The translations under genes were made by a program, and so were the position numbers. The notes under the pieces are model-generated. The model made no database searches. It was not told where the DNA came from and was given only the letters and a program-made list of their open reading frames with translations. Shown here one piece after another: positions 8,391 through 60,468 of a DNA stretch of 64,000 bases (position 1 is the stretch's first letter; every line of letters begins with the position of its first letter). Origin of the DNA: Adineta ricciae (taxonomy: Eukaryota; Rotifera; Eurotatoria; Adinetida; Adinetidae); NCBI GenBank assembly GCA_905250025.1, contig CAJNOJ010000029.1, forward strand, positions 62,001-126,000, given 5' to 3'.

Positions 8391-9071
<681 letters not shown>

Positions 9072-25509: not shown

Positions 25510-25510
25510 N
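25510..25510. other. Single N at a contig junction
   Basis: One ambiguous base separates the end of copy 1 from the beginning of copy 2. The sequence on its right restarts exactly what began at 21215. Confidence 0.98.
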
Positions 25511-35871: not shown

Positions 35872-38800
35872 TTTGTTTTTTTTTTCAGTCGTTTTCTCGT
35901 GATCAACTCTGATGTGTGATTTGATTGATTGATCGTTTGGTTTTTAGAAAACTACGTGTGGAGTAACCTTGTCTTTTCTATCCTAATATTAGTCATTCTT
36001 CTTATCTCAGAATTGTATATTTTCAATTTTCTCTTTTGTAAAAGTTCATGTTTGTTTTTCCTCGGCTTTCAATCAGCTTATGCGTAAGAAATACATACAA
36101 CAGATAAAATAGAATAGGGTCAACCAAAACTATGACGTGTATTTTCATTATCGAAAGAGAAAATGACGTTTAAATTAACTAATGCTTATTCTATCTGATA
36201 TTCTTAACAAGAAATTAGAGAGCACGTTGATATTCCAAGGAACATCTTATGCTAAAAAAGTAGAGCTCATCCGTTGGATTTGCTGACCCTTTTCTGAAAG
36301 TATTAGAAAACTAGTAGATAAACGCTCTCACTTAGACCTCAATCTAATTGGCATCGAACTGAAGTCACTTTTATGCTCATTCTTTCTTCACTCATGTCAG
36401 ATTACTTTCAATTCATTTATCCAAAGACGTAAACAAAACGAACACCGTTTATAAAAATTTATTCATCGACTCTCTTCAGACTACTCTGAATAAAAAATCA
36501 ATTTATTTTCATTTATTTTATCTCCTCTAAGCAATTCAAATAAGCGTCTAGTTGTTCGTCGGCCACTCACCGCTAGCCGTTAATGTCCAACTTTCATTCT
36601 TTCATCTAGTTTAGAATTCCCTTCAGAATGAATCAAACCGTTTCTTTCCATTCCCTGCTGAAGAATCACTAACTTTGTGCCGTTCTGACTGTCCAAAACA
36701 GCATTTGTCAGAGGAAATATTACTTTGAGTGGTTAGCATCAGATAATGTTTGTGTAATATAACTGTTTGTATAATTGTGATGTTATCAATGTGCTGATGT
36801 GTATGAATATCCAACAGTCTGATGTTAATCAGCTATTTCGTTTCAGTTCTCCATATTGCTGCTTCAAACACTATCGCCTAAAAAAACTTCTTTGCAAAAA
36901 TCGACCTTTGTCTAAAAAACAGAACAGGATTTTCTATTGAAAAACTAACAACAGATTACAGATCTCGGGAACTGATTACCCTTCGGTCAACCCTTATTTG
37001 ACAATATAAGCACTAATCATTAGCTAATTAACTAATTAAATAGTTAGTATTTGCGAAAACTAACATCGGATTCGGGATCCTTGACGTCGATTACCTTGCA
37101 ATAATAACTTCGTAAGGAACGTCGTTAAGTTTTCATTGATTTATGAAATGCTGCAATCTGATTGGCTTGGACAGACAAACTTTAAGTGGTTTTAACGCGG
37201 CTATAAACCTTTTTCACAGAAAAGGGAATAAATTGATTAGTTTAGACCATTCTTCACAAATATCAGGAAATCAACGTTTTATAGTTATGAATCGACAATT
37301 TTTCAAGAGGAATCGTAATCAGTTATTAGACTCTAGTCGAAGTTGATATGATAAATTGTTAGAATATTCCAAAAGAATACGATATCAATAGAAATCGAAG
37401 AAAAATTTCGATCTTTAATGTGAATTGTAATAGAGAAAATATATTAACACATTGTAGGATGATTTTTGTTTTGGTGATTTTGAGTTTTGAACACATTGCG
37501 ACCTAAAGAAGTATTTTTATATGAAGTCAGCATAGAGATCAGTCATTCGTACAGAAAAAGGATCAGACGTCCGTACGCAAAAAAGATCAGTCATTCGTAC
37601 GAAAAAAAGATCAGTCATTCGTACAGAAAAAAGGATCAGACGTCCGTACGAAAAAAAGATCAGTCATTCGTACGAAAAAAAGATCAGTCATTCGTACAGA
37701 AAAAGGATCAGTCGTCTGTACGCAAAAAAGATCAGTCATTCGTACAGAAAAAAGGATCAGACGTCTGTACGCAAAAAAGATCAGTCATTCGTACGAAAAA
37801 AAGATCAGTCATTCGTACAGAAAAAGGGTCAGACGTCCGTACGAAAAAAAGATCAGTCATTCGTATCTTTAACTATCGTTAACGGTTATTGAAAGCAAGG
37901 CGTAAACACTGTTAAATTAACAGTGCTAATTACTCACTCACCCGTACCGTGCTAATATTAAAGGAAAACGGGGTTAGTTTAATGGAGAAAAGGGACGAAA
38001 ATGTGGGCAAATGAAAGAGACAAAAAATAAAAATGTACGCCATCTCCACTTGTTTATAAGCCGCTACAACATTAATATTTTCTTATTCGAAAGGAAGCAA
38101 CTTCATCGCAGCAACAAGGCATGGTCACACTGGGTTTCATTAGAAGCAGTAAGTACGTGAATGCTTTTTTCTAGACTCCATGTCGAAAAGTACGGGCTGG
38201 ATCCAGAAGAAAGACACTGGAAATTAACGGAAAGTGGAAGCAGGAATCCTTCGAGCGGATCCAGGTCACGGTATCATCCGGTTCTCTCCGGAACTGAAAG
38301 AAAACAGGCAAATCCACTCGTAGGATCCGGGAGTCGGAACCATTGCCCTGAATCTTCATTAGGAATTAACAATACCAATATCGATAAATACTATTAGTAT
38401 TGGTATCGTTACACTCCTAGGCTTTATCTTCTAGCGTCTACAGATGCTTCAATATCAACGAGGTCTATATGTTTTTGGCCTGAAGACACATTGAGCTCTT
38501 TTATATAGAAAAAGATGATGATATACAGCTTGTCTACTGGACAACCCTTGAAGATTAGGAATTCGATTACACAAACACTGTACGGTGACACCGACTCATA
38601 TTTTATGCAAATATGGATCATAGTTGTCTACAGAACATGACCATCTTGCTCGATCCCGTCCCGTCTTGCCCTAAGATGTTATCATATGCCTTCCTATCCC
38701 GTTTTACTCTTCACGATAAGAGAGGACGGAGCAGAATAACATGCACTGTAGATAGTTCTAATATGGACACAGTACTGTCAGCAATAGTAGATAGCAATTA

Positions 38801-39136
38801 CTAGTGTCAGTATATTTATATCACTGTAAATGGAGAAAGGATTAGATGATACTTTAGAAAATCAACGCCATCTGCAAAGAATCTATGTGATGAGTGCTAT
38901 ATAGTTACAGTTTTCAGTTTTTTTTATACCTTTTCTCATTTGGGTAATGATCTTGCCTTGTGATGGAGAGTAAATGTAGCGTAAACACAAGTAGAAACAG
39001 AACAATTGCGGCAGTTTGCTTCAAATGTTAATAAAATACGTATAGGTTCGATTGCTGGTAGACTTATTGAATTTGCTGACATTTTTGATGACTCGGAGCT
39101 ACTAGTCAACAACCTTTGCTTCTATTTAACATAGTG
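35872..39136. other. 3.3-kb gene-poor stretch
   Basis: No supported gene. It contains the 24-bp minisatellite (37537-37866), a GGATCC-rich segment (about 38200-38345) with a short open frame, and AT-rich filler. An acceptor at 39133-39134 precedes the next start. Confidence 0.55.
37537..37866. repeat. 24-bp minisatellite, 14 units
   Basis: Fourteen direct units of 23-25 bp, each beginning GATCAG (once GGTCAG) and containing GTAC, ending in an A-rich run. Two variants alternate irregularly, TCATTCGTAC and (A/T)CGTC(C/T)GTAC. There are no unique spacers, so it is not a CRISPR array. The 24-bp average keeps a frame open for 131 codons (KKDQSFV-like repeats), which is probably a by-product. Confidence 0.92.
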
Positions 39137-42100
39137 ATGAACAATTGGTTTCGTGGTAATGACCGCAGCGAAGAAGCACAGCTAGCGGCGAGCCCACGGT
39201 ACGAACACCTAAATTGTAAATCTTTATTGTTTATACTCCTGTTTCGAAGGCTTCTGAAAAGATGGCCAATAATCACAGCTATATTGTTGGCATTCTGTGG
39301 TTTGTTCGTGATCGCTGCGGTGATTGTCTTGTCGATAATCCCCATATACCTTTCTACAAAGGACACTAGCTCTCCAGCGGAGAGCAACAATAATGGTATT
39401 GAAATTAGTGCTACTAACATTTCTTGTTCTCACTTTCTATGTTTGAGCAGACAAAATGATCGCGATTGCATTTGCTACCGACTATACTGGTAACACGTCA
39501 TCTGGGATAACAAACTACGCAGCAGTCGCGCAACAGGTATGTTTATATTTCTTAGTGAAGTGCCATCATTCGACTATTTACATGCTATAGATAAACGAAT
39601 ATTTGGGCTACAGTAGGAACACCCTTAGTGTGCGATTAATTACCTTCAGCGGTGTTGGTGAAAGAAAGAAGCGGGACACGGGGTGAGCTATTCGATTATA
39701 GTTTTCATTGACTGTAGTCTGTTTGATAAATTCTATCGTGTCTAGTTCTGGCATCTCTTGTAATGTTAACAATGGAATAAACTACAGTACGGCAAATGGC
39801 TCTGCTATGGGCATGTCCATTATTGTCAACAACTGCCCAAGAACACGATGTGTCACAAATCAATGCATTCAGAACTGCTTGGCCGAAATCAAATCCAGCC
39901 TATTATCAGTGTTTGGCTCAACCCACCTGTCATTAACTTTTCAAACTACCGACGGACAAACTATCAAAACTTCTTGTAGATTTTGTCAGTTTGGCAGCAT
40001 CAGTTCAGGTAAATAGTTCTGGCTCTGTGAAACACGACCTACAAAAGAGTGTTCAAGGATTAAGGGTAGAAATTTAGACCCCTCCTCATAGACCATGACC
40101 GACAGATGGAAAACGTCATTATCGAAAGCAATATTCTAGAAAACTCCTAAACGTCAAATGATACACTAGCGCATACAAAAGGATACTACGGATTTAACTC
40201 TACACAAATTTATATAGCATAGCCAGGTTGAAGACAGGATATAAATGGGTCGTAGACAACATTTCCCACAAACCTCTTGTCAAGTGTAGAGTTTTCTTGC
40301 GATGTCATTATTAATTGAAACTCAATATAAGAATCTAGCTAATTTGCTTTCAACGCTACTTTCCCATTTCTCAGAAAACACCATTCCACAGCTCTTGTCT
40401 AGTTCGTTTGTATACATATTTTCCCAACTAAACATTGTTGAACTAAATCGTGCTTTCTGAGAACGAACTTACAAAAACAGTCAAAATAGTTTCTTCGCGT
40501 TTCGCAATTCTATTCCGTAAAGGATTGCGCTCACAACTTTTTACTTTCATCATCTTTAGTCTGTTAAATAAGCTGCACCGCATGGATCACATATGTTCCA
40601 TTCGACTGCATCTAAATACTATACTCTCTGATAGAAAGCTGAAATCAGAGTAGTCGCCGTGATCAGCCCGCTGGCACAGAAGTTTTAGTAGTTTACTCTT
40701 GTAGGTTCGACGTGCATTGACGGTGTTAAAAATGGGTTTGAAACAGATGTAGATTGCGGTGGCGCAGCTTGTGTATCACAAAGCAAGACATGTGGCACTG
40801 GTTTGGTTTGTGGTAGCAGTAGAGATTGTACAAGTAGAGTGTGTACTAACGGAACTTGTCAAGGTAAGTGATTATGCAGTGAAAGATTAGAACTGCCAAA
40901 CGCTTTGATTATTAGCACCGACATGCACTGACGGTGTTAAGAATGGACTGGAGACAGGTGCCGATTGTGGTGGCGCTGCTTGTGTATCACAAGGCAAGAC
41001 ATGTGGCACTGGCTTAGGCTGTGGTAGTAGTACCGATTGTACGAGTGGAGTGTGTACCAGTGGAACGTGTCAAGGTAAGTGATTATGTAATAGAAGATTA
41101 TGCCTGCCATATCCATTGGTTTTAGCACCAACTTGCACTGACGGTGTTAAGAATGGGCTGGAGACAGGTGCCGATTGTGGTGGCGCTGCTTGTGTATCAC
41201 AAAGCAAGACATGTGGCACTGGCTTCGGCTGTGGTAGTAGTACCGATTGTACGAGTGGAGTGTGTACTAGTGGCACTTGTCAAGGTAAGTGATTATGTAA
41301 TAGAAGATTATGCCTGCCATATCCATTGGTTTTAGCACCGACATGCACTGACGGTGTTAAGAATGGGCTGGAGACAGGTGCCGATTGTGGTGGCGCTGAT
41401 TGTTTATCACAAGGCAAGACATGTGGCACTGGCTTAGGCTGTGGTAGTAGTACCGATTGTACGAGTGGAGTGTGTACCAGTGGAACCTGTCAAGGTAAGC
41501 GATTATGCAGTGAAAGATTAGAACTGCCAAACGCTTTGATTATTAGCACCGACATGCACTGACGGTGTTAAGAATGGGCTGGAGACAAGCGTCGATTGTG
41601 GCGGTGTTACTTGTGTATCACAAAGCAAGACATGTGGCACTGGCTTAGGCTGTGGTAGTAGTACCGATTGTACAAGTGGAGTGTGTACTAGTGGAACTTG
41701 TCAAGGTAAGCGATTATGCAGTGAAAGATTACGTGTGCCAAACGCTTTGATTTTTAGCACCGACATGCACTGACGGTGTTAAGAATGGACTGGAGACAAG
41801 TGCCGATTGTGGTGGCGCTGCTTGTGTATCACAAAGCAAGACATGTGGCACTGGCTTAGGTTGTGGTAGTAGTACCGATTGTACAAGTGGAGTGTGTACT
41901 AGTGGAACTTGTCAAGGTAAGTGATTATGCAGTGAAAGATTAGAACTGCCAAACGCTTTGATTTTTAGCACCGACATGCACTGACGGTGTTAAGAATGGG
42001 CTGGAGACAAGCGTCGATTGTGGCGGTGTTACTTGTGTATCACAAAGCAAGACATGTGGCACTGGCTTAGGCTGTGGTAGTAGTACCGATTGTACAAGTG

Positions 42101-44584
42101 GAGTGTGTACTAGTGGAACTTGTCAAGGTAAGCGATTATGCAGTGAAAGATTACGTGTGCCAAACGCTTTGATTTTTAGCACCGACATGCACCGACGGTG
42201 TTAAGAATGGACTGGAGACAAGTGTCGATTGTGGTGGCGCTGATTGTGTATCACAAAGCAAGACATGTGACACTGGCTTAGGCTGTGGTAGTAGTACCGA
42301 TTGTACAAGTGGAATGTGTGATAGTGGAACTTGTATAGGTCAGTTATAAATTTTATTAAAATTGATTAGGTTCTTTGATAAGAAAGACCGTTACGCCTAT
42401 GATTGAGTTCTGTTATGAGCCAAATAATCTGTAGTGTGACGAGGAAATTGCAAAGTATTCGGTAGACGTTTTTTCATTGCTTAAACATCGATGGATGCGT
42501 AGATAAGCGATGTTGCTTAGGAATAGACGCAGTTTATTTTGGATCTATTGTTCTTTGAGTGAATAGGACACTCGAAAAGCTCAACGACTACGTAACGGTA
42601 GAATTTGGCTTTCACGGAAGCTATGAAGCTTGAAACACATGCAGTGTGTTCTATATTTTTTAGGAATGTATTCTGAGTCTGCCCATAAATTGAGTGAAGT
42701 CATATTTTCGGATTACATTTGAGAATTGAAACTGCTTACGACTAAGGACGCCACGAGGTGCTGAAAAATACGACTTGTATTCGAACCATGGCAACGAATC
42801 CGAATTGTCTAATAGCGGACGAAAAGAAAGGTCTAATCTTCTGGGGAGGCACCCGTATTTGAGTTATAAAAATAAAAGTTTAGTTTCTTTGTATTTTGCT
42901 TCATCTGGGGGATAGATGAATCTTTCTTGGATATTATGGCAATATTAGACAAAGCAATGAAAAAACCGTCTCTTATTTATTGATTTCTATTGTCAGTTTT
43001 TAGTTATTCAGTTTCTCATGCATGTTTTGAACGTGTTCGGAGTGATTATAGAGTGGTAGGTTAGTGTGTAACTGTTAAGGATAGTGTCGCGATGCGGCTG
43101 CGCATAGGAGGCAGGACTGTGATCACGTTATGTATCAATTTAGTGACTCGTGTGAGACGAATATTTCAATTGTAGAATGTTTCTATGCTTTAATTATGAA
43201 AGACAGTTCCAACACCGCCACAGAGTCGAATGTCAAAGCAGCTTAAGTTCAGACTATCCATAGATAGATAGCTTTACCATATAATTATGTTTTTGTTAAT
43301 GGGGTATTATATTTTCTAATAACCAATGATTCAATAGAATTATTACAACTGGATACATGAAGTTTTGTTTTCGACCGATCGAATCGGTTATCGGCTTTCC
43401 AGTCTCCTAGGGCTAAGGGTGTTGTCAAGAAGTAATGGAAGTTAGCATATCCTGCGGACATCCGCTCATGGACTTGTGATGAATGTGAGACTCCTGGGAT
43501 AGATAGCTCTCGACATTCTGCATCGAGTAGTGTTATTTAGATGGAAATCCATCCACAACAACTCGAATAATACCAGTAAATACTAGCAAAAACACCACTC
43601 GATGCAGAATGTCGAGAGGTATCTATCCTAAGAGTCTCACATTCATCACAAGTCCATGAGCGAACATCTGCAGGATATACTTGAATCCGCTGCTAACTTC
43701 CGTTACGTAATATTTGTAGCCTGAGAAGATGATTGATTAGTGAGATATGGAAAGAGATCTATATAAATGACACTTTGATCGTGTATCTAAGTAATTCTAC
43801 TCACTCTCACATTGTAGATCAAATTTCACTTGCCGCTGTGAATGGAATAATTCAAGCTGTTTACAATACATTTGTGGGCGGTGATAGTACAGCATCAACA
43901 CCCGGCACCGGTATTGGTCANCCGTTACGTAATATTTGTAGCCTGAGAAGATGATTGATTAGTGAGATATGGAAAGAGATCTATATAAATGACACTTTGA
44001 TCGTGTATCTAAGTAATTCTACTCACTCTCACATTGTAGATCAAATTTCACTTGCCGCTGTGAATGGAATAATTCAAGCTGTTTACAATACATTTGTGGG
44101 CGGTGATAGTACAGCATCAACACCCGGCACCGGTATTGGTCAGTACCCACCGTCTCAATCACCAGAGGCGGCGTGGGATAATGATAGATCAACTGTGTAT
44201 ATAAATTTTGGATCATGTACATCGTCTGATAATAATAATCAGTGTGGTTTGAACACTGGCTTCTATCTTGAATTACAACGTGGTTCAACTGTAGTGACGG
44301 CGTTTCAATTGTACACAGGCAGTGATCATTCTGAACGTGATCCGCTAATCGTGTCGTTAGAAGGAAGTAATCAATCAGGATCAAATCTGGCACTTGGTAG
44401 CAGTTGGACTCTTATTTATAATGGCAATAGTGGATTAGCAACCTATCCGGGTCCTAATAGCGGCGGCTCGATACAGCAAACAGACAACACGATTTCGTAT
44501 AAGAGTTATCGATTTCTTGTGTCTGGAAAACGATCAACGTCAAACAGTGTTCTGTATTCTGAACTGATATTTTATGGATACTAA
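39137..44584 (+). CDS. Single-pass membrane protein with eight cysteine-rich repeats and a C-terminal discoidin-like region
   Basis: Thirteen phase-consistent exons give 838 aa: 39137-39395, 39451-39536, 39591-39682, 39746-40008; repeats 40705-40863, 40916-41074, 41126-41284, 41336-41494, 41547-41705, 41758-41916, 41969-42127, 42180-42338; last exon 44040-44584. Exon 1 encodes one membrane helix (IITAILLAFCGLFVIAAVIV), so a type II topology is likely. Exons 2-4 form an unknown domain (MIAIAFATDYTGN). Each repeat exon is exactly 159 nt, phase 1-1, 53 residues with eight cysteines (TCTDGVKNG, DCGG, KTCGTG, DCTSGVC, GTC). The last exon resembles an F5/8-type galactose-binding fold (FYLELQRGSTVVTAFQLYTG). 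Function unknown; possibly an adhesion or recognition protein. Confidence 0.8.
40705..42338 (+). repeat. Eight tandem 211-bp exon+intron units
   Basis: Each unit is a 159-bp exon plus a 51-52-bp intron, and the introns are almost as similar as the exons. Units 2-3 share one intron type (atgcctgccatatcc) and units 5-6 and 7-8 look like a duplicated pair. Unit 1 and the end of unit 8 are the most diverged. Confidence 0.95.
43432..43706. mobile_element. Foldback (inverted-repeat) element in an intron
   Basis: Left arm 43432-43535 and right arm about 43590-43706 are imperfect reverse complements over roughly 100 bp, with a loop of about 54 bp. Matching parts include CGACATTCTGCATCGAGT against its complement and the outer ends gtaaYggaagttagc. 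The right arm has a small insertion (ttgaatccg). Non-coding; it looks like a MITE or foldback element. Confidence 0.75.
43700..43920. repeat. 221-bp exact duplicate, left copy
   Basis: Identical to 43922-44142. It includes the acceptor and the first 103 bp of the last exon of the cysteine-rich gene and stops at the N. Confidence 0.95.
43921..43921. other. Single N at a contig junction
   Basis: Flanked on both sides by the same 221 bp, as expected for an overlap that was not merged. Confidence 0.98.
43922..44142. repeat. 221-bp exact duplicate, right copy
   Basis: Continues into the full last exon of the cysteine-rich gene (44040-44584). Confidence 0.95.
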
Positions 44585-47500
44585 CATGTTTATCTTACTG
44601 TTGGAAACTAATTCAACGCTCTGCCAGTCCAGGTTCTCCTCTTGTAGAGTTTAACGTCTTGAATTTTTTGTCTTTTCAAAACGCGTTTGTTTATTATCAT
44701 ATCTCATTGTTGTAAGCATTCGTCACTCTTACACTTTTCTGCGCTTGTAAGTTTTATCCAATTCCACTATCTATATCATTATGGGCAAACTGTGTTATAG
44801 TATAAATGGATTCTTCATTTCAAATTACTCGAATCGCATCTAAATACGAATATCTCCGTAGAAATTCTAAGAGAATACTCTTTTAAAGGTTAAACATTGT
44901 AATTTAGACAAAAACCAGTGTTGATTGTTTATGTCAAGAACAAATAAGTCGTAGATTACCTTGCGACATGATACTGCCAATGTGTCGTTGTGAGAACGAC
45001 TTGAAACTCACCAATCGAACGCTTTTTGAAATAATTGGTGATGTTCAGAAATTTTTTTTAATTCGTTGATTCCCCCAAGTTTTTAGCTGTTTTTTACATA
45101 ATGATTTTATTCAGCGTCTTTTATGTCGTTATCTTAGAACATGAATAGCCATTGAGCAGTATCATTCGTTGGTATTAAATGAGCGACCGATACAGTAATT
45201 TCCATTGGAACCAGATTAAATTACTCATATATACACCTCCACGAACATACATCTATTGATGAAATTTTCGATTCATAGTGTCCTACTAGGAAACATTAAA
45301 TAATACTAAAACTTCGTAAGTTCCATTTCTCATCACTTCCATTTCTGAGTTCACTCAAAAATAAATTCACCTCTACTCTCTCTATCTGCAATTCCCACCC
45401 CGAAGATATTTCTGCAACTTTATCCGGGTTCCAAGTTCTCTACTTGTTTCGTGTCAGTTCATATAGGCAGAATTCAGGCTGCATCTATTTAGAATTTAGT
45501 GAGAAGGAGAGTGAAATTTCCGAAAACGGTAAAAAATACGTTAAGTTCTGAATCGCTTCACTGTGCCGATTGTGAATGTGCTGAGGTAGGTGTTAAACTA
45601 TCGTGAGTGAATGATACTATGCGTAAGGTTTTTTTGAGTAGATAGTTGTCCAGCCAATGGTCTTACGCATTTGTATAATGTTAGAATCTCGCTGAAATAA
45701 CAGTTGTTCGTCACTGGTGTATTCAGCTCAATAACTGAATCTCTTGTTCAGAGGAGAATTAGGAAGCAAACAGAAAGTTTTCCTGTAATTACAGGTATGA
45801 ATATAAACCTTCACAGGTATCTGGAGATGTATGAGTTACTGTGGCGAGTGACAGAATGAAATTCACATCCATTGGATATAATTAGTTCGGTGTACCTCAA
45901 GTGAGACACATATAGTAGCTTGTTTACTAGGTGCACGATTGTTTTATTGAATAAAGGAAATTTTGAGGAACTTCAAAGATGCTGTGCAAGCCAACGGCAA
46001 TGAATTAGTAAAGTTTATTATATCTATCGATTCGATCGAGAATATGACGCTTATTTGTTGTGGAAACTTATATATACAAACAAAAATGAATTGAGACAAT
46101 TTCCATTTAGTTTTGTTTCAGTTGTTTGTCATTGTACTTTGTACATTTGCTATAAAAAATTATTTCACTATCGGATTTTGTCGATTCTAGTTAATAGGAT
46201 CCAATAAGTCGTCGGAACTCAATGCGATTCCGTTCCCCGTTCTACGATAAAATCCGACAGCTTTCGATCAAAGCCTATGGCATGGCATCCGACTCTATGA
46301 TTGGACGACCTGGGTACGGGTGGAGATGAAAACTTTTATTATTGGAGCCGATGTTGGGCACGCATATCTGAACGCATAAATCGTGCAAGGACTCGAATCA
46401 TGCGCTAAGATATCTTACGTCCAAATTGATGCCTTTTACAGAACGAAATTGCTCGATTATCGATTTCTACAAGTGGAGAAAATAATAAAATTTGTGCTTC
46501 AGATCACAGTAATCTATAGTGCGAAATTCTTCGTACAAAATGTCGTCGAGTCTTTCAATTACCTCAAAGCAACTAATCAGTGTATAGAATAGTCTACTAT
46601 GAATAGAATTTGACGCTGCTTCGAGGCATACGTTCAACATTTTGTTCGAACGTTACCTTAGTAAACAAGAACTTTTTTTGGAGGCACGAAAATCGTATTT
46701 GTACAACGTATTTCAAGACTTTTATTCAATTCTCAATTTATAGCATTTGCATTGTACGGCACCCTAAACCAGATAGTATTCTTGGTGTATAATATTTGCT
46801 ATAACACAAGTCATAACAATAAGGAAAACCGCAGTCTGCTGGAAAGCTACATTTTCTTTACAAAATCGCCATTTATCGAAAATTTATTTTTTCCCGAATT
46901 CCCACTTTTCAAAACAGAGCATTTTATGTGTTTAATACGAGCTAAAGCAGAAAGCAAACAGTGTGTTTTCCAGATCAAAATGTGTTTTCGAAAACTGAAT
47001 GAGTGATAGCTGTGTTATACAAACATCATCTTCAATTCGCCGAAAAAATGTTCTCATAGTTCGCTAAGTTTCATCTAAGAATTACTGCGAACATTTATCT
47101 AGAAACAACAGCAGATATTTATCTCCTCGGACATTTTCTCGCGTCCTACAGCGAATTATAGGTAGGCGTAAATTGATTACGTATGTATCAACGGCTAGCC
47201 ATTAAGCGATGGAGTTTTGAGTAAACACAGCTTGTACGCGAAAACTGCTCGCTGACAAATGGTTAGTTGGTTCGATTCATGGAAACGGATCGCTCTTTAC
47301 CTTTTATTAACTCTAGTATATGCTACTGCAGTGCCATCGTTCAGCTGAGAATCAATAGCAATCACCGTTCCTGATTTGGTTTTCAAAGCGTTTGAATGTG
47401 CTGAGCACTGAGAAAATTCTTTCAGAAAAGGGTCAGCGGATCCATCGGATGAGCGGTACTTGTGGTAAATATGGGTATGTTCTCATTCTCAGAGGCGCGA

Positions 47501-48003
47501 AAGGCCGTTTCTTTTATGCACTTGACACCAGATGCACGTTTCACTAGTGGCGATCATATTTTTACGAGTAGATCAAGAAAATCTAGCAAATATTTTGCAC
47601 GCTTGTATGATATTCCACTGATAAGAACATTGTGATTTATAAGTTAATAGTATATGATCAAAGAGATTATTTTGAGGAAAATGCTCAAAACAGGCCTTTG
47701 CTGTTTGTGCCAAGCCTGTAATATGCTGAATGCTATAGATGGCTGCACATACCAAATGTTCTCCGTTTTCATCTTTGACAATTTCCTTATGAGTTATAAA
47801 TCTTTTGGCACTAAAGTTTCATGAAAATGTTACATCCATTTTCTGTGCGTTGTTGATGTATTGTATATATCTACTAATACAATGTATGAGTCATCGGGTG
47901 TTAAACACTAATCGGATTGGTTGCTTGTAGTATGTGTCTATCTAACGTAACGCTGTTACGTTTCAATAGTATATTTACTTCTAAACACGCAAAATAAGGA
48001 GTG
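44585..48003. other. 3.4-kb gene-poor stretch
   Basis: Only short open frames without family resemblance or splice support. No repeat array, tRNA or transposase motif was recognised. Confidence 0.5.
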
Positions 48004-50890
48004 ATGGCTGACGTTTCATGGGATGAAATTCGTAGTTTACGAGCTGATTTTCTCAATTTACAATTATCCGAAACGGCCAATAAGTAATCTATCAACGATT
48101 GTCGATTTTTTTCTCCGTGTAATATTTCATTATCTAGACTATCCGAGCGAAATTGTGTCGAATTGATTGGATTATTGGTAAAAGAAGGTTTACTGAATGT
48201 TATATATACTACCGATGGTAAGGATATTATAACTGAACAGCGACTGATCCGAGAAATTCTCGACGAAATCTATGCGAATGGAGGTATGTACTTCGGCATT
48301 TTGTTGACTTTTCGTATTCTCGAAATATCCATCTACAGGTCGTATTAATATTGTCGATTTGGCACAGCATCTTCGCATTGATTTAACTTACATTGAAGGT
48401 AAAGTCGGCGACGTCTGTAAAGAAGATCCGACTTTACAATTTATTTTGGGACAATTTATTTCTGCGTGAGTTGCATTGAAAGACAAATGAAAATTGTCTA
48501 TTTACTTTTGTCTTTTAAGCAATTATACCAATCGTTTGGTGGAGGAAATCAATGATATGCTGGTCGAACGTGGTTTAATTCCATTTAGTGACTTGATCCG
48601 TCAATTTGATTTGCCGACAGAATATTTGAATTCAATTGTTACGAACCGAATTATTGGCTCGGCATTAAATGGTATTAAGTACGAATCAGGAACATTATAT
48701 ACCGAAAATTATGTTCGTTTACAACAAAATATCCTTATTGGCTATCTTCAAGCAGCACTTTTACCTGTACGTGTAAATGAAATAATAAAAAATACTCGTG
48801 TTAATGAAAATCTTATCCAAGGTAAACTAGCATGAACTTACTGATAAAATCGATCTCTTCAATTTTCAGGTCTGATCGTCAATCTAATTCGTGAGAATCG
48901 AATCAACGGGACTCTGATTGGCACAACAAGAGAGAGTTCAATTTTTAATCCAAAAGTCTACACCGATGCTCAAGCGAAATATATTGACTCGTTTTTTACC
49001 CAGAATGGCTATATTGAATATTCACTTGTACGTAATCTTGGTGTTACTGATCCTGAAGGGCAAACAAAGTTAGTGTTAAAAGATCGTCAACAGACTTTGT
49101 ATTTAATTTCTGGTTGTGTTGATCTGCCAAAATTTCTTCCTCAATTGGAAATGAATATTGAACAAGGATTAGTTTCGAATGAATATGTGGATTTGACAAC
49201 TTTAATACCGAACAGTTTTACTGATAACGATATTGAAAAGTTATTAAAATCTGAAGGATCAATCAAAGAAGTGATCAAGTCATCAGGTGGCGAACTTCTT
49301 TCGAATACATTTGTTATCAGTAAAGAATTGCAAGACAAAATCGACAAGAAACTGAATGAAATTTGTCAAGAATACGCAGAGAAGGTAAGAACCAATTCAA
49401 CAGAATGAAGACGAATCGATTTGTTTTGCTTTGAAGGAATCAGCTCATTGTACTCCGCAATTGTATGCCGCCGCCCTTCAAGGAAATATTGCATTAGCTT
49501 CATCGTCATCATCAGCAACTGCCAAAGGTGCAGTAGCGAAAAAACCTGCCGCATCCGCTGGCAAACGTAAAGGCGCATCGAAAGTTTCTGAGGAAACAAG
49601 TACAAATCAAGAAACGATTCCATTCGTTGGTAAAGATGAAATCAAATCTCAAATTCGATCCATCAACGATGAATTACCTGATGAAATTCTCGATTTACTA
49701 ACCGATAATCTTTATAGGTAAGAAAAATTGAGTCAAAACAGCGGGTTCTTCATTATTCGTTTTCAAATTCTAGCGTCAAAAGTCGTCAATATCTGGATCA
49801 ATTTATTCAACGCGTGAAGGAAAGTTTTGTCGCGAAAGAATCTGAGGCAGGTAGTGATACAACACGGAAGAATGAAATAAAAAATGTACAAGAATCGATT
49901 AAACAAATGCATGCAAACATTTGTATATTTTCACGTGCAATTGAACAGTTAATAGCAGAAAACGAAACCGGTCTTGGTAAATTTCCTATATAGAATGACC
50001 CGTTTCATCGAACTAAATAAAAAATGCAATTTTAGCTGAAACTCTACAGCGACATTTAATCCGTTCGCTCTGCTCCGACATGTGCGATAACATCTTACGA
50101 GAACTCGATCCATCTGCAAATTCGAAAACAGGACAACTAACTATCGAAGTAAGGTTCATTCTCACGTGTACATACACCATTTCCAACCTGATGAACTCTC
50201 ATCTTTTCCAAGGAACGAAACAAACTCATACAAAAAATGTCCGAACCCAATCGTAGTTTCCTATCGAAAGTCAATGAATCTCTCAACGGCAAAGTAAATT
50301 CGATTGTGTTTTCTCCTCCGAATCTAGTTTTAATTATTGAAGAATGTTGAGACAACTTTAACTCGACTTGAAGATGCAGCCAATGATCTACTTCAACTAT
50401 CATTGAAACGTCCGAATAAGAAGAACGAAAAGTACGCTTTGAACTTTTGTCGTAGGTGTAAAGCATGTTGGATTATTCTAGAGATATTGCATTGGATATT
50501 CGCGAAAAACTCAAAGCGAAGCTAACAGATGAACAAGATCCAGCAATGATTCTTCATCTCACCGTGACTTTGATCTTCTATGCTGTTACCACGGGCCGAT
50601 TTATTCATGCTCCAGGTAAAGCTGTGCCAGCATTGATCAAATATTTATCGAAAGCACTCCCAACTAATGTTAATCAACGTTTACATGAAATGCAAGGTAA
50701 GCATTTCTTTCGTATTTTATAAGAGTACAGTGTTCTTTGCGCAGATTATGTCATCCAACAATCCACAACAGGCGCTGCAGCTGCACCGTTGTCCACCGAC
50801 AGAATTGAGTTCATTAAAAAGTTAGGTTTAAGTGCGAAAGAAAACATGTCATTTGCATCGTTTTCAACGGATACGGATGAAGCGCAATAA
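48004..50890 (+). CDS. UFL1: E3 UFM1-protein ligase 1
   Basis: Transfers the ubiquitin-like modifier UFM1 from UFC1 to substrates at the ER and ribosome. Twelve exons: 48004-48083, 48138-48283, 48339-48465, 48520-48821, 48870-49384, 49437-49717, 49774-49976, 50036-50148, 50213-50293, 50343-50431, 50464-50696, 50745-50890, giving 771 aa (human 794). Hallmarks: the start MADVSWDEIRSLRADF, LSERNCVELIG, GRINIVDLAQHL, YTNRLVEEINDMLVERGLIP, VDSFFxQNGYLE-like IDSFFTQNGYIEYS, a basic Ala/Lys linker (about 400-430), and MILHLTVTLIFYAVTTGRFI then HAPGKAVP. The exon 11 acceptor (gtgtaaag) was chosen for frame. No internal stop remains. Confidence 0.95.
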
Positions 50891-51963
50891 ACGTTTAACT
50901 TTTCTTCAATGAAAAAATAAAATTACCATCGAATATTTATATATAAAGTATGGTTTTGGGATATATTTTAAGAAATAAAGAGACAAAACAATTTTAATTA
51001 AAAGAACGTTTTATAAATTCTTTATAATATTTGTTTGAAAGAAATAATTAATAGCTAGGAGATTTCGATAACATCCAATCATGTGTACTGATAAAGGACA
51101 AAGTATATAGCACTGTATTGACTGATTATTCTGATCATGCTCTCTCTGTGTTTTTGACAGCAATCACGTGATAGTATACAGGCTAAAATAAATGTTACTT
51201 ATCACTAATGTGACAGTTAATACACGCTTGTCGTTAAATGTCGAAAAATGACTGAATAAACAATAAAGTTCTTCCTACAACAAACTAACGCAAATTTTAT
51301 TTAGATCAAAGAAGACGACGAAATCTTGCAATGTTCAAATTTTCTTCATTTTCAGAAATTACCGCACTACATGACTAACATGTTTTAAAGGACTAAAGAC
51401 TAAATAGCGAAAAGTTTTACATATGACACAAACCATGAGCTAATAATACGCGATGTGAAGAGCTATCAATCATTATTAGCTATGCATCACAGCAAGAATG
51501 GCTGCATTCTCGCGTTATCTAAAATTTTGACATTGATGGTCAAACATTTCACATATTACAGAATGTGATTCTTTTTCTGTACATGTATGTATTACAGATC
51601 GAACAATTTCTGTCGTGAAAATAATAATCCCGTGTTCTTCCTAGTATTTTAATCAAAAAAGTTTTCCATCGGAACAATTGCTCACGTTTCCCAGCTTACT
51701 CGTCTATGCCTAACACACATGGCAATACTGCTATGTAATAAAAATGAAATAGAAGCGGTTAACGAAGACGAATCGACTCATCGATCAGTACAATAAAGCC
51801 ATATTTTTAGCTTTGATTTCATCATTTTAGAGTCGGTTCGTGATGATGGCTGTGGATATCCAACATTTACCCAAATCGTTACTCTCGTTCACATTTTTGC
51901 CTTTACTCTGACTCTCACTCTCATCCATACCCATAGAACAAGATATATTATGTTAAATTTCAG
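50891..51963. other. Intergenic
   Basis: 3' UTR of UFL1 (aataaa near 50918) and the upstream region of NAT. AT-rich; nothing else was recognised. It ends in a splice acceptor (aaatttcag) abutting the NAT ATG. Confidence 0.5.
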
Positions 51964-52884
51964 ATGGAAAACGATGATCGTGTTGATGAATATTTGAAAC
52001 GAATAGAAGTCAATCGCCCGAAAGATGTATCGGATGAAGAATATCTGGCTCAATTGCATGTGGGCCATTTAACACACATACCATTCGAAACGTTTGATTT
52101 GATCGACATTAAACAATTGAATATTGAACAAGATCAAATCTTTCGCAAACTCGTACAAGAAAAGCGTGGTGGAGTTTGTTGCGAAATGAATGGTCTCTTT
52201 GCGTTTATTTTGCAGAATTTTAACTATAAAATTGAACTCATTCCATGTGGAGTTTATGCAACAGAGACAGAAAGTTATTCTGATCTTTATACGCACATTG
52301 CCATGCGTATCACAACGAAAAATGGTACAAAGTATCTATGTGATGTTGGTTTCTCAATGGATCCGCTTACACCATTATATTTTCAAACGGATTGTGTTCA
52401 ATATGCTTTAAATGGCTTTTATCAAATAATCAAATCCGAGGATCAATTGTATTATCAACTTAGAAATGGTTGTCTGAAAAATAAAAACGATCAGTTTTCT
52501 CTCACATCATCTTCATTGGAAACTTCAATTGTTGATATCGATCCGGAGCGTATTGCATGGCGTATGAGTTATCGATTTCCGATTGATTTCGACCAGAAAA
52601 CATTGACATTAGACGATTACAAGTTCAAATGTCCGTCCATTGTTCATTCGCCCGATATTATACTCAATCATCAATCGATTTGTCATATACATACGTACCA
52701 ACCAACAGTTGGTGCTTATAGTTTAAATGGTAAAAAGTATTCTGAATGGATTTTCGAAGATGGACACGCGATCCGTAAAAGTGCACCATCATCGATTGAT
52801 GACAAGGAAGTAGAGAAACTGTTGCAAGAAAAATTCAATTTAAACATTGAACGAAAAATTGAACTTGTTGATTCCTTAATATGA
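51964..52884 (+). CDS. NAT: Arylamine N-acetyltransferase
   Basis: Acetylates arylamines and hydrazines with acetyl-CoA. Single exon, 306 aa. The full catalytic triad is visible: Cys72 in EKRGGVCCEMN, His111 in YTHIAM and Asp127 in CDVGF; the HIPFETFD block near residue 38 is also typical. NATs are common in bacteria and fungi and in vertebrates, but patchy in invertebrates. Together with the intronless frame this makes horizontal origin plausible, though the sequence alone does not show a donor. A splice acceptor ends exactly at the base before the ATG. Confidence 0.93.
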   Translation: MENDDRVDEYLKRIEVNRPKDVSDEEYLAQLHVGHLTHIPFETFDLIDIKQLNIEQDQIFRKLVQEKRGGVCCEMNGLFAFILQNFNYKIELIPCGVYATETESYSDLYTHIAMRITTKNGTKYLCDVGFSMDPLTPLYFQTDCVQYALNGFYQIIKSEDQLYYQLRNGCLKNKNDQFSLTSSSLETSIVDIDPERIAWRMSYRFPIDFDQKTLTLDDYKFKCPSIVHSPDIILNHQSICHIHTYQPTVGAYSLNGKKYSEWIFEDGHAIRKSAPSSIDDKEVEKLLQEKFNLNIERKIELVDSLI

Positions 52885-54704
52885 ATAAATGCTTATTTTT
52901 ATCTTTCACAGCTGCTATATGTAGTCCTACGAAGATTGTCATTCAATCATTTTATCTTATTGATAACCTTGATACTACTGCTGAGAAAATGAGAACATGG
53001 ATAGATTATTATATCGATATCTATATTATTAATTGGCAAATAGCATGGATGGTATATCGAATAGCGAGAGAGACAGGAAAAGGTGTTGAAAATGTGATAG
53101 TTAACATTTATCAACTAATATGTCCTCTGTCTATCGAAAGAAGACCTGAATGAATCAATGCAATCTTTCTCTTTCTCTTCCATATGCCGATACGTATGAT
53201 TGAGATTGTCAATATTCTTAAGGTCTTTCTCCTCAAAGCTTTAGTCAGCATTTGCTCGATCGAGATCGATTCAATCGTCACATCTGATTTTCATTTGTAA
53301 ACACCAAGAGTATCAGTTCGTTGAATGTCTTATCAGTAACAATGGAATGATTTTATTCCTGGAAGTAACAGACAATATATCACATCGATCTAAATATTTT
53401 ACCTAACCAAGGTGACACACATGTCGATTGAAATCTAACCTTAGTGATAGATGACATGCATAACCTTGACGATTCTATTATCAATTATTAAAATAGTTTT
53501 CCTCAAAGACCAAGAAAATGCCAGAATGTCTGCTTGAAGATACTTATCTACTTGTTAACATCCTTCAAATAGGACATACATATAGAAAAAAAAATAGAAA
53601 AATCTCTTCTTGTTTTCTATTTATTAGCTAATGACATTTCGATTGAAAGAACTTGTTACATATTAATAACAAATGCGTATGTTTATTGGAATACAAAAAT
53701 ATCGTTGCTTTTGCTTCATTCTTTTCTCTCCTTTCTCCTTCATGCATCTTCTAAGATTGCATATAATCATCATAATAACAACACGGCACACAAAGCACAA
53801 CGAGATGTAAATCATATTCTTTCGTCGTTTTGAAATATATCCTGTGTATATAGTAGAATATTAATTGAAATAAACGTCAAGCAATTATTTTCATATATAT
53901 ATATATCGGTGTGTAGGAGAAAAAAACAACGCCTATTACTTCACGATCTTAAAATAAAATCAAGAAAAGAACTGTGTGTGTGTGTTCGTGGTAGTTGTTA
54001 TTGATAATTAATCAGTGCTTAAGAAGAAAAAGAAAAAAACTCGGAATGAAACACCTGCATAAAAACATAATTCTATATACATAAAGATTTACGTGCTTGC
54101 GGTTGATCTATTCTTCCAGTTTTTGATATTTACCTAAAGTATACTAGTGATAATTCGTTCATGTGCCAATCATATTTGAATTCGAAAGAGATGGTCGAAT
54201 GCTGGCAAGTTCTTTTTTTTCATGACTCGATAATTAGATGTTGAAGTTTTTGACAGATGCTTCTTCATTTATACTTCACACAATCAAAGGTTGACCTTGG
54301 TATGAATATGTTTTTTCTTTTCAAGAAAAAAAAGAGAGATTAATTTCAGAGTCGGTTTGGAGGGTGAGACACTATTGAAATATATACACCGCTTTGTCGG
54401 TCGTACGTAGACAGACACACACATACGCATGCGAAAAAACGATCACTATCGATAACAGTTTTTTTTGTGTGTCGTCTCCATCGCTTTCTCTCTCGCTTGT
54501 CTTCCTCCTGTCTATCTATCTTTTGTAGGTATTTTTTTTTATTTTCTAGTTTTGTTTCTCTTTGTCTCTCTTTCTCATACAGACTATCCGGTTGTTTTCT
54601 ACGCTTTACTCTCTCTCTCTCTCTGTTATTATAGTGTTGGCAACGGTGACTAACGGGTTCTACTTTAGTCTTCAACAGGAATCTCTATATTTCCTTGTTT
54701 AAAG
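52885..54704. other. 1.8-kb intergenic stretch
   Basis: AT-rich, with a short TA run (about 53893-53906) and a CT-rich tract (about 54475-54625) before the TINAG-like gene. A short frame overlapping the NAT stop is not convincing. No gene was recognised. Confidence 0.5.
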
Positions 54705-56144
54705 ATGACATGGATATTTTTCTTCGTAAATATTCTAATTTTATTATTGAATACAACGAATTCTCGTTACGCTGAATGGGAAGAAATCAAACCATACTGT
54801 TCTGTACGTCCACATCCTCAATGTTGTGCTAGTCGAGATGATGATTGTTTCATGCCTTATTATGATTCGCGATGCTATTGCGATGCATTTTGTTTTCGTG
54901 GCATTGATAATCATGATTGCTGTCCTGATCATGATTCCGTTTGTAAAGGTGAAAATGTCTCATTACCAACAACACCTGCACCTCAACCAACCGGTAAATG
55001 TTATGACCCATCAACAAATCGACAATACTCATTCGGTGAATCATTTCTACGTGATTGTAATTTATGCCGTTGCACTACACTTGGATTTCAAACAATATTG
55101 TCATGCGAAGAAGACTTATGTGTCAATAGTGATGAACTTATTTCACATATTAATCAACAACAGCAATATTTAGGTTACAAAGTACGAAAATATGATAAAT
55201 TTAATGGCGTGAAAGTTAAAGATGCATTAAATCATTATTTGGGTACAATACCTGATCGAAGTTTACGTACCATGGTCGACAATGCACCTGACAATCCAAC
55301 CGATTACTATCATATGGATGATGTTCATGCTTATGATATTCGTTCGAATGCTTCACTTGTCGGCAAAATTCGCGGCGTACGTGACCAAGGCAAATGTGGT
55401 ATTTCATGGGCATTGTCAACAGTCGATGTTGCTGCTGATCGACTGTCACTCGTACACAACATCAAATCACCGAAGGAACCTTTAAGTGTGCAAAATATTC
55501 TTTCGTGTACAGATAAAGCAGCGAAAGATGACTGTCAAGGTGGACGGGTTGCTTACGCCTGGGGTTTCATCAAAGATCGTGGTGTTGTAACAGAAAATTG
55601 TTATCCTTATGAAAGCGGTCAGACAGGTCGTATTGATGAATGTAAACTTCATTTGTCCGATGCTGATCTACAGAGCATTGCTCAACATCGAAAAGTCAGC
55701 AATATTCAATGTCCGTCAAATACGAAAGACGGCGAACATTTTAATTTTGGACCTGCCTATCGTGTCCGCGATGAAGTTCGTTCGATTAAATATGAAATTC
55801 GTTTTCGTGGCCCTGTTCAAGCGACTATGCGTGTTACACCCGAATTTTTCTTATATGATTCTGGTGTATATCGTTGTGGTGGTTCCAATTTTGAACGACA
55901 AAATCCTCGGTATGCCAATTTAGCTGCTTACCATTCGATTCGTTTACTTGGCTGGGGCGCAAATTATGATCAACAAGGACAACCAAAAGACCATTATTGG
56001 ATTGTAGCAAATTCTTGGGGTACAGGCTGGGGTAATAATGGATATTTTCATATTGGTTTTGGTGAATGTGAAATTCAAGAAACCGTTATTGCAACATACG
56101 GTAAATCTACTGAAGTACTTAAGAAAAAGAGTCGACGACAATAA
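54705..56144 (+). CDS. TINAGL1: Tubulointerstitial nephritis antigen-like protein (inactive papain homolog)
   Basis: Secreted matrix protein. Single exon, 479 aa. Order: signal peptide (1-20), a Cys-rich somatomedin-B-like segment (about 40-80, CYCDAFCFRGIDNHDCCPD), a second Cys-rich segment (CNLCRCTT, about 118-126) and a papain-fold domain from about 205 to 465. At the active site the sequence is DQGKCGISWALS, so Ser234 stands where papain has Cys. His410 (AYHSIRLLGWG) and Asn436 (VANSWG) are kept. The Cys-to-Ser change is the mark of TINAG proteins, which are non-peptidases in the basement membrane. Confidence 0.93.
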   Translation: MTWIFFFVNILILLLNTTNSRYAEWEEIKPYCSVRPHPQCCASRDDDCFMPYYDSRCYCDAFCFRGIDNHDCCPDHDSVCKGENVSLPTTPAPQPTGKCYDPSTNRQYSFGESFLRDCNLCRCTTLGFQTILSCEEDLCVNSDELISHINQQQQYLGYKVRKYDKFNGVKVKDALNHYLGTIPDRSLRTMVDNAPDNPTDYYHMDDVHAYDIRSNASLVGKIRGVRDQGKCGISWALSTVDVAADRLSLVHNIKSPKEPLSVQNILSCTDKAAKDDCQGGRVAYAWGFIKDRGVVTENCYPYESGQTGRIDECKLHLSDADLQSIAQHRKVSNIQCPSNTKDGEHFNFGPAYRVRDEVRSIKYEIRFRGPVQATMRVTPEFFLYDSGVYRCGGSNFERQNPRYANLAAYHSIRLLGWGANYDQQGQPKDHYWIVANSWGTGWGNNGYFHIGFGECEIQETVIATYGKSTEVLKKKSRRQ

Positions 56145-56865
56145 AAAAGAAATGGCGGTATTTCACTTCTGAACAGTCAAAAACATATGTATGCGTGTTG
56201 TGTGTTAGATTTTCAATATCTCTCTTCTTTTCGTTCTGTTTCCTATTAGTTTTCGATTTCTTTTTTGATATAAACAGGAATGATTCTCTTTACCACTTGA
56301 TATGATACATGTTTGTCAACCGCTGACGTCGATCGCTGAGTAGGAGGCGAAATACAAGTGATCAGATTTCTTTTTTTTGCGTATAGAAGAAGATCAAAAT
56401 AATAATGTCAAAGAAAGTTGCTGTTATTGTTGGATATGTCGATGTATTCTGGCCTTCTCTTTCTCTTTCATCTTCAAGAGGCGTTTTCTTTTTGTATTGA
56501 ATCAATTGACCTTGTTAGAGTTACCAGTCACTCTTTCTATTAATCTCACTTTGCTAATTTGACACATATACATAGATATTGACGATTTGCGTCCTGTGCT
56601 GACGCTTTACAAATTAGAAATGAACTGATTGTCATACGAGCTCGATGAGAAAAGAGAATCTGATCAAATGACGCTATTGTTGTTGTTTACATAAATCATA
56701 TATCAATTTCGATTGTCATACTAAACAAACAAACACGTTACAAGTTTTATTCATCATGATGTTGTTTTTTCACATTCGAAAATAACTGTAACGTTTTGCT
56801 TTAAAGATTTTCTATTTTTCATTTTATCGAAAGGTTTATTGAACAATATGCGTGTCTTTTTCCAT
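56145..56865. other. Convergent 3' region
   Basis: Between TINAG-like (plus) and the neuropeptide gene (minus). A short frame near 56377-56562 has no support. Nothing else was recognised. Confidence 0.5.
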
Positions 56866-57231
56866 TTAACCAACTTGAGCCCATGATGGTCGTTTGTTGC
56901 GGAAAGCGGCTGCTCGTTTTCCCACCGCTGCCCAACTTGGTCGTTTTAGACGTTGAGCATTGACATCTAAACTTTTCGTTTGTCGAAGCAACGGATACAG
57001 TGACGATGTATCGGCAAAAATTTCTGGATGAGACTGTTCAGTCAATTGACTGAGATACTCGTCGAGCGTATCAATATCGGCTAGCGGATTGTTGATTGAA
57101 TCCGTCGTAGAAGTTGGAGCATTGTTCGGTACTGATTCATTGACAATCAATTCACATGGACATGGATTTGCCATCGATATTGATAAAATAGCCAGTAGAA
57201 ATGATAAACAAACGAGCGATAAACGAAACAT
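56866..57231 (-). CDS. Neuropeptide precursor with two PSWAxV-amide peptides
   Basis: Single exon, 121 aa. It has a signal peptide of about 21 residues (FRLSLVCLSFLLAILSISMA) and an acidic spacer. Two C-terminal cassettes follow: KR-PSWAAVG-KR (about 97-105) and KR-PSWAQVG immediately before the stop. Dibasic cleavage and use of Gly as amide donor would give PSWAAV-amide and PSWAQV-amide. If cleavage falls elsewhere, RPSWAxV-amide is possible. The last peptide needs no C-terminal cleavage. I do not know a named family with this motif; the -xV-amide end recalls Mytilus inhibitory peptides only weakly. Two peptide-type receptors lie in the same window. Confidence 0.85.
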   Translation of the reverse strand: MFRLSLVCLSFLLAILSISMANPCPCELIVNESVPNNAPTSTTDSINNPLADIDTLDEYLSQLTEQSHPEIFADTSSLYPLLRQTKSLDVNAQRLKRPSWAAVGKRAAAFRNKRPSWAQVG

Positions 57232-57807: not shown

Positions 57808-60468
57808 TCACATGGATAATTTCTTCAAACATTCTTTCGTTATGTCATTGGGTAATGTTACTTTCAATTTAGATTCTTTGCCCATCGCGCGTTCCACTGT
57901 TTGACGAGCATTCTTATTTCCTGACCATGAACGTCGACTAACACCATTGATAACATCCCAGTATAACATTTGTCGAATATTCTCATCCGATTTTGTACTT
58001 CCATCAAGAAACATGCCGAAACCACCTAAATAGAGAATATCAGTTGTATATTTTGTCACAGAATGAGACGTTCTTTACCATTCATAACTTCGCCAAAACC
58101 TACACCGCCACCGTTATGCAGTGCTACCCAAGTTGCACCACGAAACGCATCCCCGATGATATTCTGTACTGACATATCTGAAAGAAAGTGAATTTGGAAT
58201 GAAGTCGACTTGATTCATTTTGACATACCAGCACAGAATGCAGATCCATCTTCCACATTGGATGTTTCACGAAAAGGCGAATCTGTTCCAGACACATCAT
58301 GATGATCTCGAGAGAGAATAACTGGACCTTTCAAGCGGCCTTCTCGGATCGCTTGGTTGAATGCCAAGCCAATATTGATTCGACCTATTTGATCTGAATA
58401 GAGAATTCGTGCTTGCGAGCCAACGACTAATTTAGCTTCATTTGCTTGTCGAATCCATTTTAAATTATTGTCATATTGCTCCAAGACATTAGTTGGAGCT
58501 ATACAAACAAGAATTTACATTTGGAAAACATATATGATGCTACACTTACTATTTTCTGCCAACATGAGTTTTTCAATGACATCTCCAGCAATTTTATCCG
58601 TTTGTTGAAGATCACTTTCTAAGCCAGATGCACACACCCATCTAAACTAAAGATAAACAGTGTTTCATATAAAGTACAATCTAACCGAAATGGACCGAAG
58701 CCAAGTGAGAATATATCTCCCATAATATCTTGGACATATGATGGATATTTGAAACGAATACAATGCTGTTCACCACTACCACCAACCGGCGCACCTTTCC
58801 AACAGAAATACAATTTTCATACTGACCTTCATCAGAGAATTTGAATTCTACCTGCACGTTTAGCTGTGAGCAAGAATGCATTTCCGTAGTCGAAAAAGTA
58901 CATTCCACGTTCATGTAGTTTATCAATAGCTGCAATTTGTCGTCGAATGCTAAGTGTGATAAGGCAGAAGAAAGTCAAAGCAGAATTGATATACAGAGTA
59001 AGGCAACCTTTCGTGAACAAGCTCCTTGAATTTTTCGGGATCACTTTTCATGCATCGTCGAGCTTCATCATAGGACAACTATAATCTTGTAAAATAAAGG
59101 AGCTAAGCGGTAAAGACTATTTATTTACTTGAACTGGATAATATCCTCCAATATATGGATCGTGACATGATGTTTGATCAGATCCAAGATCCACTAAATT
59201 GTCTTCTTCTTGTGCTAAACGTTCCCTAAACACGATTGTTTTCATATGACAAACTACAAGAAAATATGTTCTTACCACAAATCGACGACATTTCCAACAT
59301 AGCCAATTGAAGTCGAAAGTTTCTTTTCTCGACACACTCGAATACGATCAATCAATTGATTAAGATCATAGATCAATTCTTGACACCAGCCTTGTGCGTG
59401 TCGTTTTTTCGCTGCATCTTCGCTCACTTCTGCAATTACACCAACGCATCCGAGAAGTTGACATGCTTTTGGTTGAGCACCAGACATGCCACCCATGCCC
59501 GACGAAACGAATACTTTTCCACCGAGATCATTTGAATCGAATTTCTTTCGCACAGCGTTCATGATTGTAATCTTACAGAAATATCCTAAGTTTACTAAAT
59601 CCAAAATGAGATTTTGATACGTACGAATGTGCCATGTACGATTCCTTGTGGACCAATGTAACAGTACGATCCCGCTGTCATCTGACCATACATAGTACAG
59701 CCAAGTGCAAACATACGTTCGTAATCACTTATTGACGAATAATTCGGAATGACCTAAATTATGATAAATACTTTTTTCATACTAGATTTCAAAGTTCATG
59801 AACGTACCAGACCATTTGTAATGACAACACGTGGAGAAAATTCCGTTCTCGTTGGAAACAAACCCATCGGATGTCCTGAATACATTACAAGTACTTGTTC
59901 ATCTGTCATAATACTCAAATAATTCATCACTAATAAAAACTAAAACAAACATCATTGATTTTCCTTTTCAAGTCAATAAGCGACTGCGATATTTTACTTG
60001 AGCCCAATTCGAAAAGATTTGCCCATTTCCACCGTATGTGACCAATTCATCAGGAAATTGTGCCACTCTTTTATCCAAATTATTCATTATCATTAACATA
60101 ATTGCGGCAGCTGCTTTACATTTACATGTATACTCATCAATAGGGTACGCACGCATATCAATATCGGGTTGAAATCGATACATGTATATATGCCCATACG
60201 TATCCAATTCGTATTTGAATTCATCGACCAAATGTACTTGAACTTTGGCCGGAAAATAACGAAGTGCATTTTTAATCGCTAACTAAAAGTCAATGATTTC
60301 CATTTTCAGATTCGAAAAATTCGATTACGTTACTTTGCGTTCTTCGTTGGATAACGATGATTTTCTGTAGGGTGCATGTGGAACATCTGTACTACGAGAT
60401 TTCTTTGGCGGTGGTAAAGGATCCAATGGTAATCCTGCGCAAAGTTTTCTAAGGATTTCACTCGCCAT
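57808..60468 (-). CDS. UROC1: Urocanate hydratase (urocanase)
   Basis: Second step of histidine breakdown: urocanate to imidazolonepropionate, using NAD. Thirteen minus-strand exons: 60334-60468, 59998-60282, 59808-59939, 59625-59753, 59276-59571, 59129-59225, 59008-59078, 58852-58949, 58686-58794, 58550-58641, 58229-58498, 58079-58177, 57808-58025. The product is 676 aa, the same length as I recall for human UROC1. Marks: RFQPDIDMRAYPI, LVTYGGNGQIFSNWAQ, VMYSGHPMGLFP, FVSSGMGGMSGAQ, VDLGSDQTSCHDPYIGGYYP, KYPSYVQDIMGDIFSLGFGP, LSRDHHDVSGTDSPFRETSN, ALHNGGGVGFGEV. An apparent frame break at 58830-58850 disappears if 58795-58851 is spliced (RAG|APVGG). A splice acceptor (tttgtttcag) abuts the ATG. 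Confidence 0.96.

Follow-up and report, generated by a model that had tools for sequence, protein, structure and literature searches.

Two PSWAxV peptides in a probable amidated neuropeptide precursor, retained as a duplicated gene pair in the bdelloid rotifer Adineta ricciae

The question raised by this locus is what is made by a short open frame of Adineta ricciae that ends in two copies of a PSWA(A/Q)VG sequence set among dibasic residues. The frame lies in the analysed stretch of 64,000 nucleotides (the window), and read from its sequence it most likely encodes the precursor of an amidated neuropeptide or peptide hormone, with a probability of about 0.85. It runs uninterrupted on the minus strand from an ATG at 57231 to a TAA ending at 56866, giving 121 amino acids and a stop, and so fits exactly the coordinates 56866..57231 of the initial annotation, which had named no strand. 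Taken from the uninterrupted frame, the gene would consist of a single exon. The features are as follows.

56866..57231, minus strand: precursor open reading frame, 121 amino acids plus stop (open frame and paralogue)
57169..57231, minus strand: predicted signal peptide, residues 1-21, with the SMA/NPCPC cut placed by eye (hydropathy; the paralogue start FVKS/CPC is similar)
57154..57162, minus strand: CPC motif at the start of the mature protein (identical in the paralogue)
56968..56997, minus strand: conserved island YPL(L/V)xxxxKSL, N-terminal to the cassettes (alignment with the paralogue)
56941..56946, minus strand: KR cleavage site ahead of peptide 1 (sequence)
56920..56940, minus strand: peptide 1, PSWAAV plus amide-donor Gly; PSWATV in the paralogue (sequence, alignment)
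56914..56919, minus strand: KR cleavage site after peptide 1 (sequence)
56890..56895, minus strand: KR cleavage site ahead of peptide 2 (sequence)
56869..56889, minus strand: peptide 2, PSWAQV plus terminal Gly abutting the stop; identical in the paralogue (sequence, alignment)
56835..56840, minus strand: AATAAA polyadenylation-like signal, 25 nt past the stop (sequence)
54669..56144, plus strand: papain-family (Peptidase_C1) neighbour outside the peptide system, tail-to-tail with the peptide gene (Pfam match; paralogous locus)

From its N-terminus the precursor reads as a signal-type start, NPCPCEL, a spacer rich in Asp, Glu, Ser and Thr, YPLLRQTKSL, RLKR, PSWAAVG (residues 98-104), KR, AAAFRN, KR and PSWAQVG (residues 115-121, immediately 5' of the stop), with the KR sites at residues 96-97, 105-106 and 113-114. 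Residues 1-21 look like a signal peptide: the Kyte-Doolittle maximum over 12-mers is 2.82 at residues 7-18 and stays at or below 0.98 beyond residue 25, and the same hydropathy measure finds a signal-type hydrophobic core in the second copy of the gene described below. The translated frame confirms what had been claimed for it at the outset, namely a signal-type start, dibasic sites and two PSWA(A/Q)VG copies, one bounded by KR and the other at the stop codon. A signal-type N-terminus, dibasic-flanked peptides ending in Gly and conserved peptides among drifting spacers, the marks of an amidated precursor, are all present.

Chance seems a poor source for such an arrangement. With an amidation cassette defined as dibasic-x(4-12)-G-dibasic or end, just one of the 106 Met-started frames of at least 60 amino acids in the window contains any, and that one is the peptide frame, which has two. 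When the mature part was shuffled 200,000 times, a cassette having a core of six residues appeared at least once in 61 shuffles and twice in none. The back-translated KRPSWAxVG pattern has four matches in the 130 Mb genome, two in the window gene and two in its paralogue, and the reversed pattern, used as a control, has none.

The paralogue carries much of the argument. A search of the animal's own genome (130.5 Mb, 1033 contigs) finds one clear second copy on contig C10 (780944-781267; E 3.4e-16, 39% identical), and a further match at E 1.1, in which the cassettes are absent, was dropped as chance. The C10 copy repeats the order of parts: a signal-type start, CPC, a spacer, YPLVHHAKSL, RFKR, PSWATVG, KR, SSIVLK, KR, PSWAQVG and stop, and a polyadenylation-like signal 30 nt past it. 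Across the cassettes and their flanking KR sites (residues 96-106 and 113-121) 19 of 20 residues are identical, against 25 of the 92 that align elsewhere (Fisher p 1.5e-8, a statistic on two sequences from one genome). Nei-Gojobori estimates run the same way, with dN 0.79 and dS 1.66 for residues 23-93, dN 0.16 and dS 0.80 for residues 94-121, and dN 0.53 and dS 1.17 for the whole gene. The layout, the amidation signals and the way in which the cassettes, more than the rest, were conserved after an old duplication together support the amidated-precursor architecture that the initial annotation had put forward. The Ser codon is AGT in cassette 1 and TCA in cassette 2 of both genes; the gene therefore probably already had both cassettes when it was duplicated. 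Cassette 2, from KR to Gly (27 bases, window 56869-56895), differs by one base between the two copies; its divergence lies below the surrounding synonymous level, which could reflect local constraint, gene conversion or chance.

That the frame is non-functional, kept open by chance or as a recent copy, is extremely unlikely, given cassettes intact at a dS of about 1.2, both frames open, polyadenylation-like signals after both, and a duplicated block that extends over tens of kb. A non-neural role for the secreted peptide, in defence, a gland or development, with the same enzymes processing it, deserves more weight and is still unlikely. Sequence by itself says nothing of cell type, and conservation between two sequences of one genome is compatible with another reason for it such as defence; against this, six-residue uncharged amidated cores, conserved precisely while the spacers drift freely, would suit a receptor ligand better than a membrane-active peptide.

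As an amidated neuropeptide or hormone precursor the product would enter the secretory pathway, be cut and trimmed at KR by a convertase and a carboxypeptidase, and have its Gly turned into an amide by PHM/PAM, and so PSWAAV-NH2 and PSWAQV-NH2 would be released to act on one or more GPCRs. Proline directly after KR makes a poor site for furin-like convertases, and arthropod CCAP has a KR-PF start. Because of this proline the position of the first cut is uncertain, and cleavage between K and R may yield Arg-started RPSWAxV-amides as alternative mature forms. The genome encodes both a PHM-type domain and convertase P-domains. Cu2_monoox_C has 16 genome matches, three of which were compared with solved structures: one is PHM/PAM-like (1.3e-18 to PHM/PAM structures), and the other two are closest to dopamine beta-hydroxylase. 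The convertase P-domain has 13 exon-level matches, 3 of them with internal stops; this family was also matched in one of 14 control genomes and so is not exclusive to animals.

The surroundings of the two genes bear on their age. Each peptide gene stands tail-to-tail with a papain-family gene (54669-56144 in the window; 7866-9335, minus strand, in L004, the stretch C10:776000-785900). The proteins of this peptidase pair are 73% identical in tblastn with dS 1.10 and dN 0.17. Since the peptide genes have a similar dS, the two duplications appear to be of the same age. Further along, on the papain-family side, which is the side of the C10 peptide gene that the block comparison covered, C10 785,000-814,700 (three stretches of 9.9 kb) corresponds, in reversed order, to window positions running from about 35.9 down to about 15.9 kb (matches at E up to 1e-5). 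Between the matched block and the papain-family gene lie about 18.7 kb in the window as against about 3.3 kb of match-free C10 sequence. An N-acetyltransferase gene (51961-52881) sits inside this window stretch without a C10 match (36000-54600). Window positions 21-30 kb are matched twice by C10, which suggests a tandem duplication in the window's copy of the block; the C10 block fits two parallel window stretches about 4.3 kb apart, for example 21955-22821 and 26251-27117 (within 21600-30000). On the other side of the peptide gene, upstream, urocanase exons occupy window 58218-59724 on the minus strand, and L004 holds no frame that matches them. Collinear duplicated blocks are what is expected of bdelloids, and from their collinearity over tens of kb the two peptide genes are read as ohnologues. 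For Adineta vaga, a passage of PMC4498783 reports degenerate tetraploidy of ancient origin. With both ohnologues kept, three forms are possible, the PSWAAV, PSWATV and PSWAQV amides.

The C10 copy is a nested gene. A dynein heavy-chain gene of the same orientation encloses its whole frame (L004 4933-5271, plus strand) in an 840-bp GT-AG intron (4574-5413), and the dynein frame resumes across the intron as ..VNVENYK/FSESGTYYVPQ... Three adjoining scanned frames match Dynein_heavy with AAA_lid_11, Dynein_C and again Dynein_C in Pfam, and a genome search with the exon 3' of the intron gave 9 matches at E up to 1e-4, one of them the exon itself and the closest of the others 54% identical. No dynein was found in the window, where L004 frames of at least 25 amino acids match the peptide and papain-family genes only (E 1e-3). 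On these sequences the dynein copy was probably lost from the window block and the peptide gene retained there; a later insertion of either gene is possible.

How a nested gene might free its message is a matter for speculation, for which a pyrimidine-rich tract that ends, 36 bases upstream of its ATG, in TTTCTCAG offers a candidate spliced-leader acceptor that could act through trans-splicing. The spliced leader printed as the Rotifera consensus in Table 1 of PMC3795323 has no exact 23-mer match in the genome; at up to 3 mismatches it has 46, of which 41 differ at one base (the first), 3 at two and 2 at three, with none for the control. The lack of an exact match speaks against a simple rotifer reading, but the near-exact copies support the rotifer attribution. 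Thirty-four of the 41 one-mismatch copies form 17 divergent pairs, minus then plus, on contigs C6, C8, C43, C77, C79, C99 and C146, and in 14 of these pairs the copy starts are 151-154 bases apart. A TGTGGG telomere-type repeat gave 28 matches and its reversed control 30, the control being the same repeat in another phase.

Tentatively, and with somewhat less than even odds, PSWAxV-amide may belong to a peptide-receptor system of its own, one that originated in, or is confined to, bdelloids (or Gnathifera), older than the tetraploidy and kept in both ohnologues, the nested copy perhaps trans-spliced and the other standing alone in a block in which no dynein was found. Rotifers and other gnathiferans are described in a passage of a 2021 survey as a poorly sampled frontier of spiralian neuropeptide work; the survey credits one study, which included three Rotaria species, with very few identified precursors (PMC8557429). 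Comparing ohnologues within one genome supplies concrete ligands for mass spectrometry and receptor assays, PSWAAV-NH2, PSWAQV-NH2 and PSWATV-NH2, and suggests a route to lineage-specific peptides in degenerate tetraploids, which is to look for secreted pairs conserved mainly in their KR-bounded cores.

What is new here is probably the PSWAxV peptide family, the amidated precursor as a kind of gene being already well known. The family is apparently, and we think probably, undescribed and comes so far from a single genome. That the motif matches no established family, as first proposed, held in the Pfam search and in the motif tests for individual families: Pfam returned no family for the window copy (E up to 1) or for the paralogue (E up to 0.01). 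A PDB sequence search gave four chance-level matches at E up to 10, the best at 0.82, and 25 pattern stretches in viral contigs and 30 in prokaryote genome contigs included no relative, as expected for an animal gene. Among the best-ranked matches in open-licence PMC main texts, which exclude the supplements where precursor lists usually sit, no PSWAxV peptide appeared; papers that matched the core strings were judged unrelated by their titles and opening abstract lines, and amide-name matches in such texts were to 'PSWamide' only, mostly in AKH/RPCH/ACP peptides or receptors.

Could the gene belong to a known family and have diverged strongly within it? The best candidate would be the bombesin / EP / CCHamide group, which has in common with PSWAxV a W-A near a short amidated end, the bombesin core being WAVGHLM-amide and the annelid EP core WAIH. 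Such a descent is quite unlikely. One EP as printed in PMC5996578, GKCRGRWSIHACLGGNamide, reads W-S-I-H at this place, and according to a passage of PMC6617912, from 2019, EP/CCHamides almost always contain two cysteines and occur as one copy straight after the signal peptide, whereas the PSWAxV peptides are cysteine-free and lie in two copies at the C-terminus. The two rotifer species examined both have EPs according to the same passage, and Adineta vaga is in the paper's data list; a canonical EP is therefore probably present in bdelloids alongside the PSWAxV gene.

A derived luqin/RYamide or a derived AKH/RPCH-type peptide, proposed on the strength of a common PSW, is very unlikely. 'PSWamide' occurs in the AKH/RPCH literature, and some members end in ..SPSWamide; AKH/RPCH peptides, however, start with Gln or pyroglutamate, have a Trp at or close to the amidated C-terminus and come as one copy after the signal peptide, whereas the PSWAxV precursor has no such start, no Trp-amide and two C-terminal copies. 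Aplysia luqin, APSWRPQGRF-amide in a passage of PMC7041311, also contains PSW, but the RF/RY/RWamide end and the C-terminal cysteine pair of the luqin/RYamide family are absent from the PSWAxV precursor.

Valine amides offer another comparison. Among the short amidated-peptide precursors of spiralians, those of PxFVamide, or Mytilus inhibitory peptides, are alike in having a signal peptide, short dibasic-flanked peptides, a Gly donor and a C-terminal Val amide, and fulicin and CAPA are further Val-amide precursors. The PSWAxV precursor differs from these in having no P-x-F-V, FxEFV or PRV core and in its two copies only, at the C-terminus; the motif -P-x-F-V-amide is given in a passage of PMC5996578, and the core here is PSWAxV. 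Among amidated neuropeptides, a 2015 paper describes those with a C-terminal valine amide as the smallest group (PMC4603347).

CCAP itself has a FCNxFxGC core, which PSWAxV lacks, and the genome has separate CCAP-like genes. The CCAP pattern has five genome matches, of which three are short frames without a precursor layout and two (C3:1105823 region, minus strand; C8:979454 region, plus strand) are precursor-like, each having a hydrophobic stretch at the N-terminus, the conserved stretch NR(L/M)C...AC and a single C-terminal FFCNGFIGC; from their sequences these two are apparently another retained gene pair. A CCAP ligand is reported for Rotifera in a passage of PMC6660194. The two precursors end KR-FFCNGFIGCKSASG-stop and KR-FFCNGFIGCRNAGR-stop, one in G-stop and the other in GR-stop. 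The placement of a peptide at the very C-terminus, which the initial annotation had regarded as unusual, turns out otherwise, as both CCAP-like precursors of the same genome have it too; the C-terminal region is likewise where some parasitic flatworms have their luqin peptides, according to a passage of PMC7041311. The CCAP-like genes thus resemble the PSWAxV genes as a short secreted-type pair with the peptide at the C-terminus after KR and a Gly at the stop or one residue before it, and differ in a FFCNGFIGC core with two cysteines, present in one copy.
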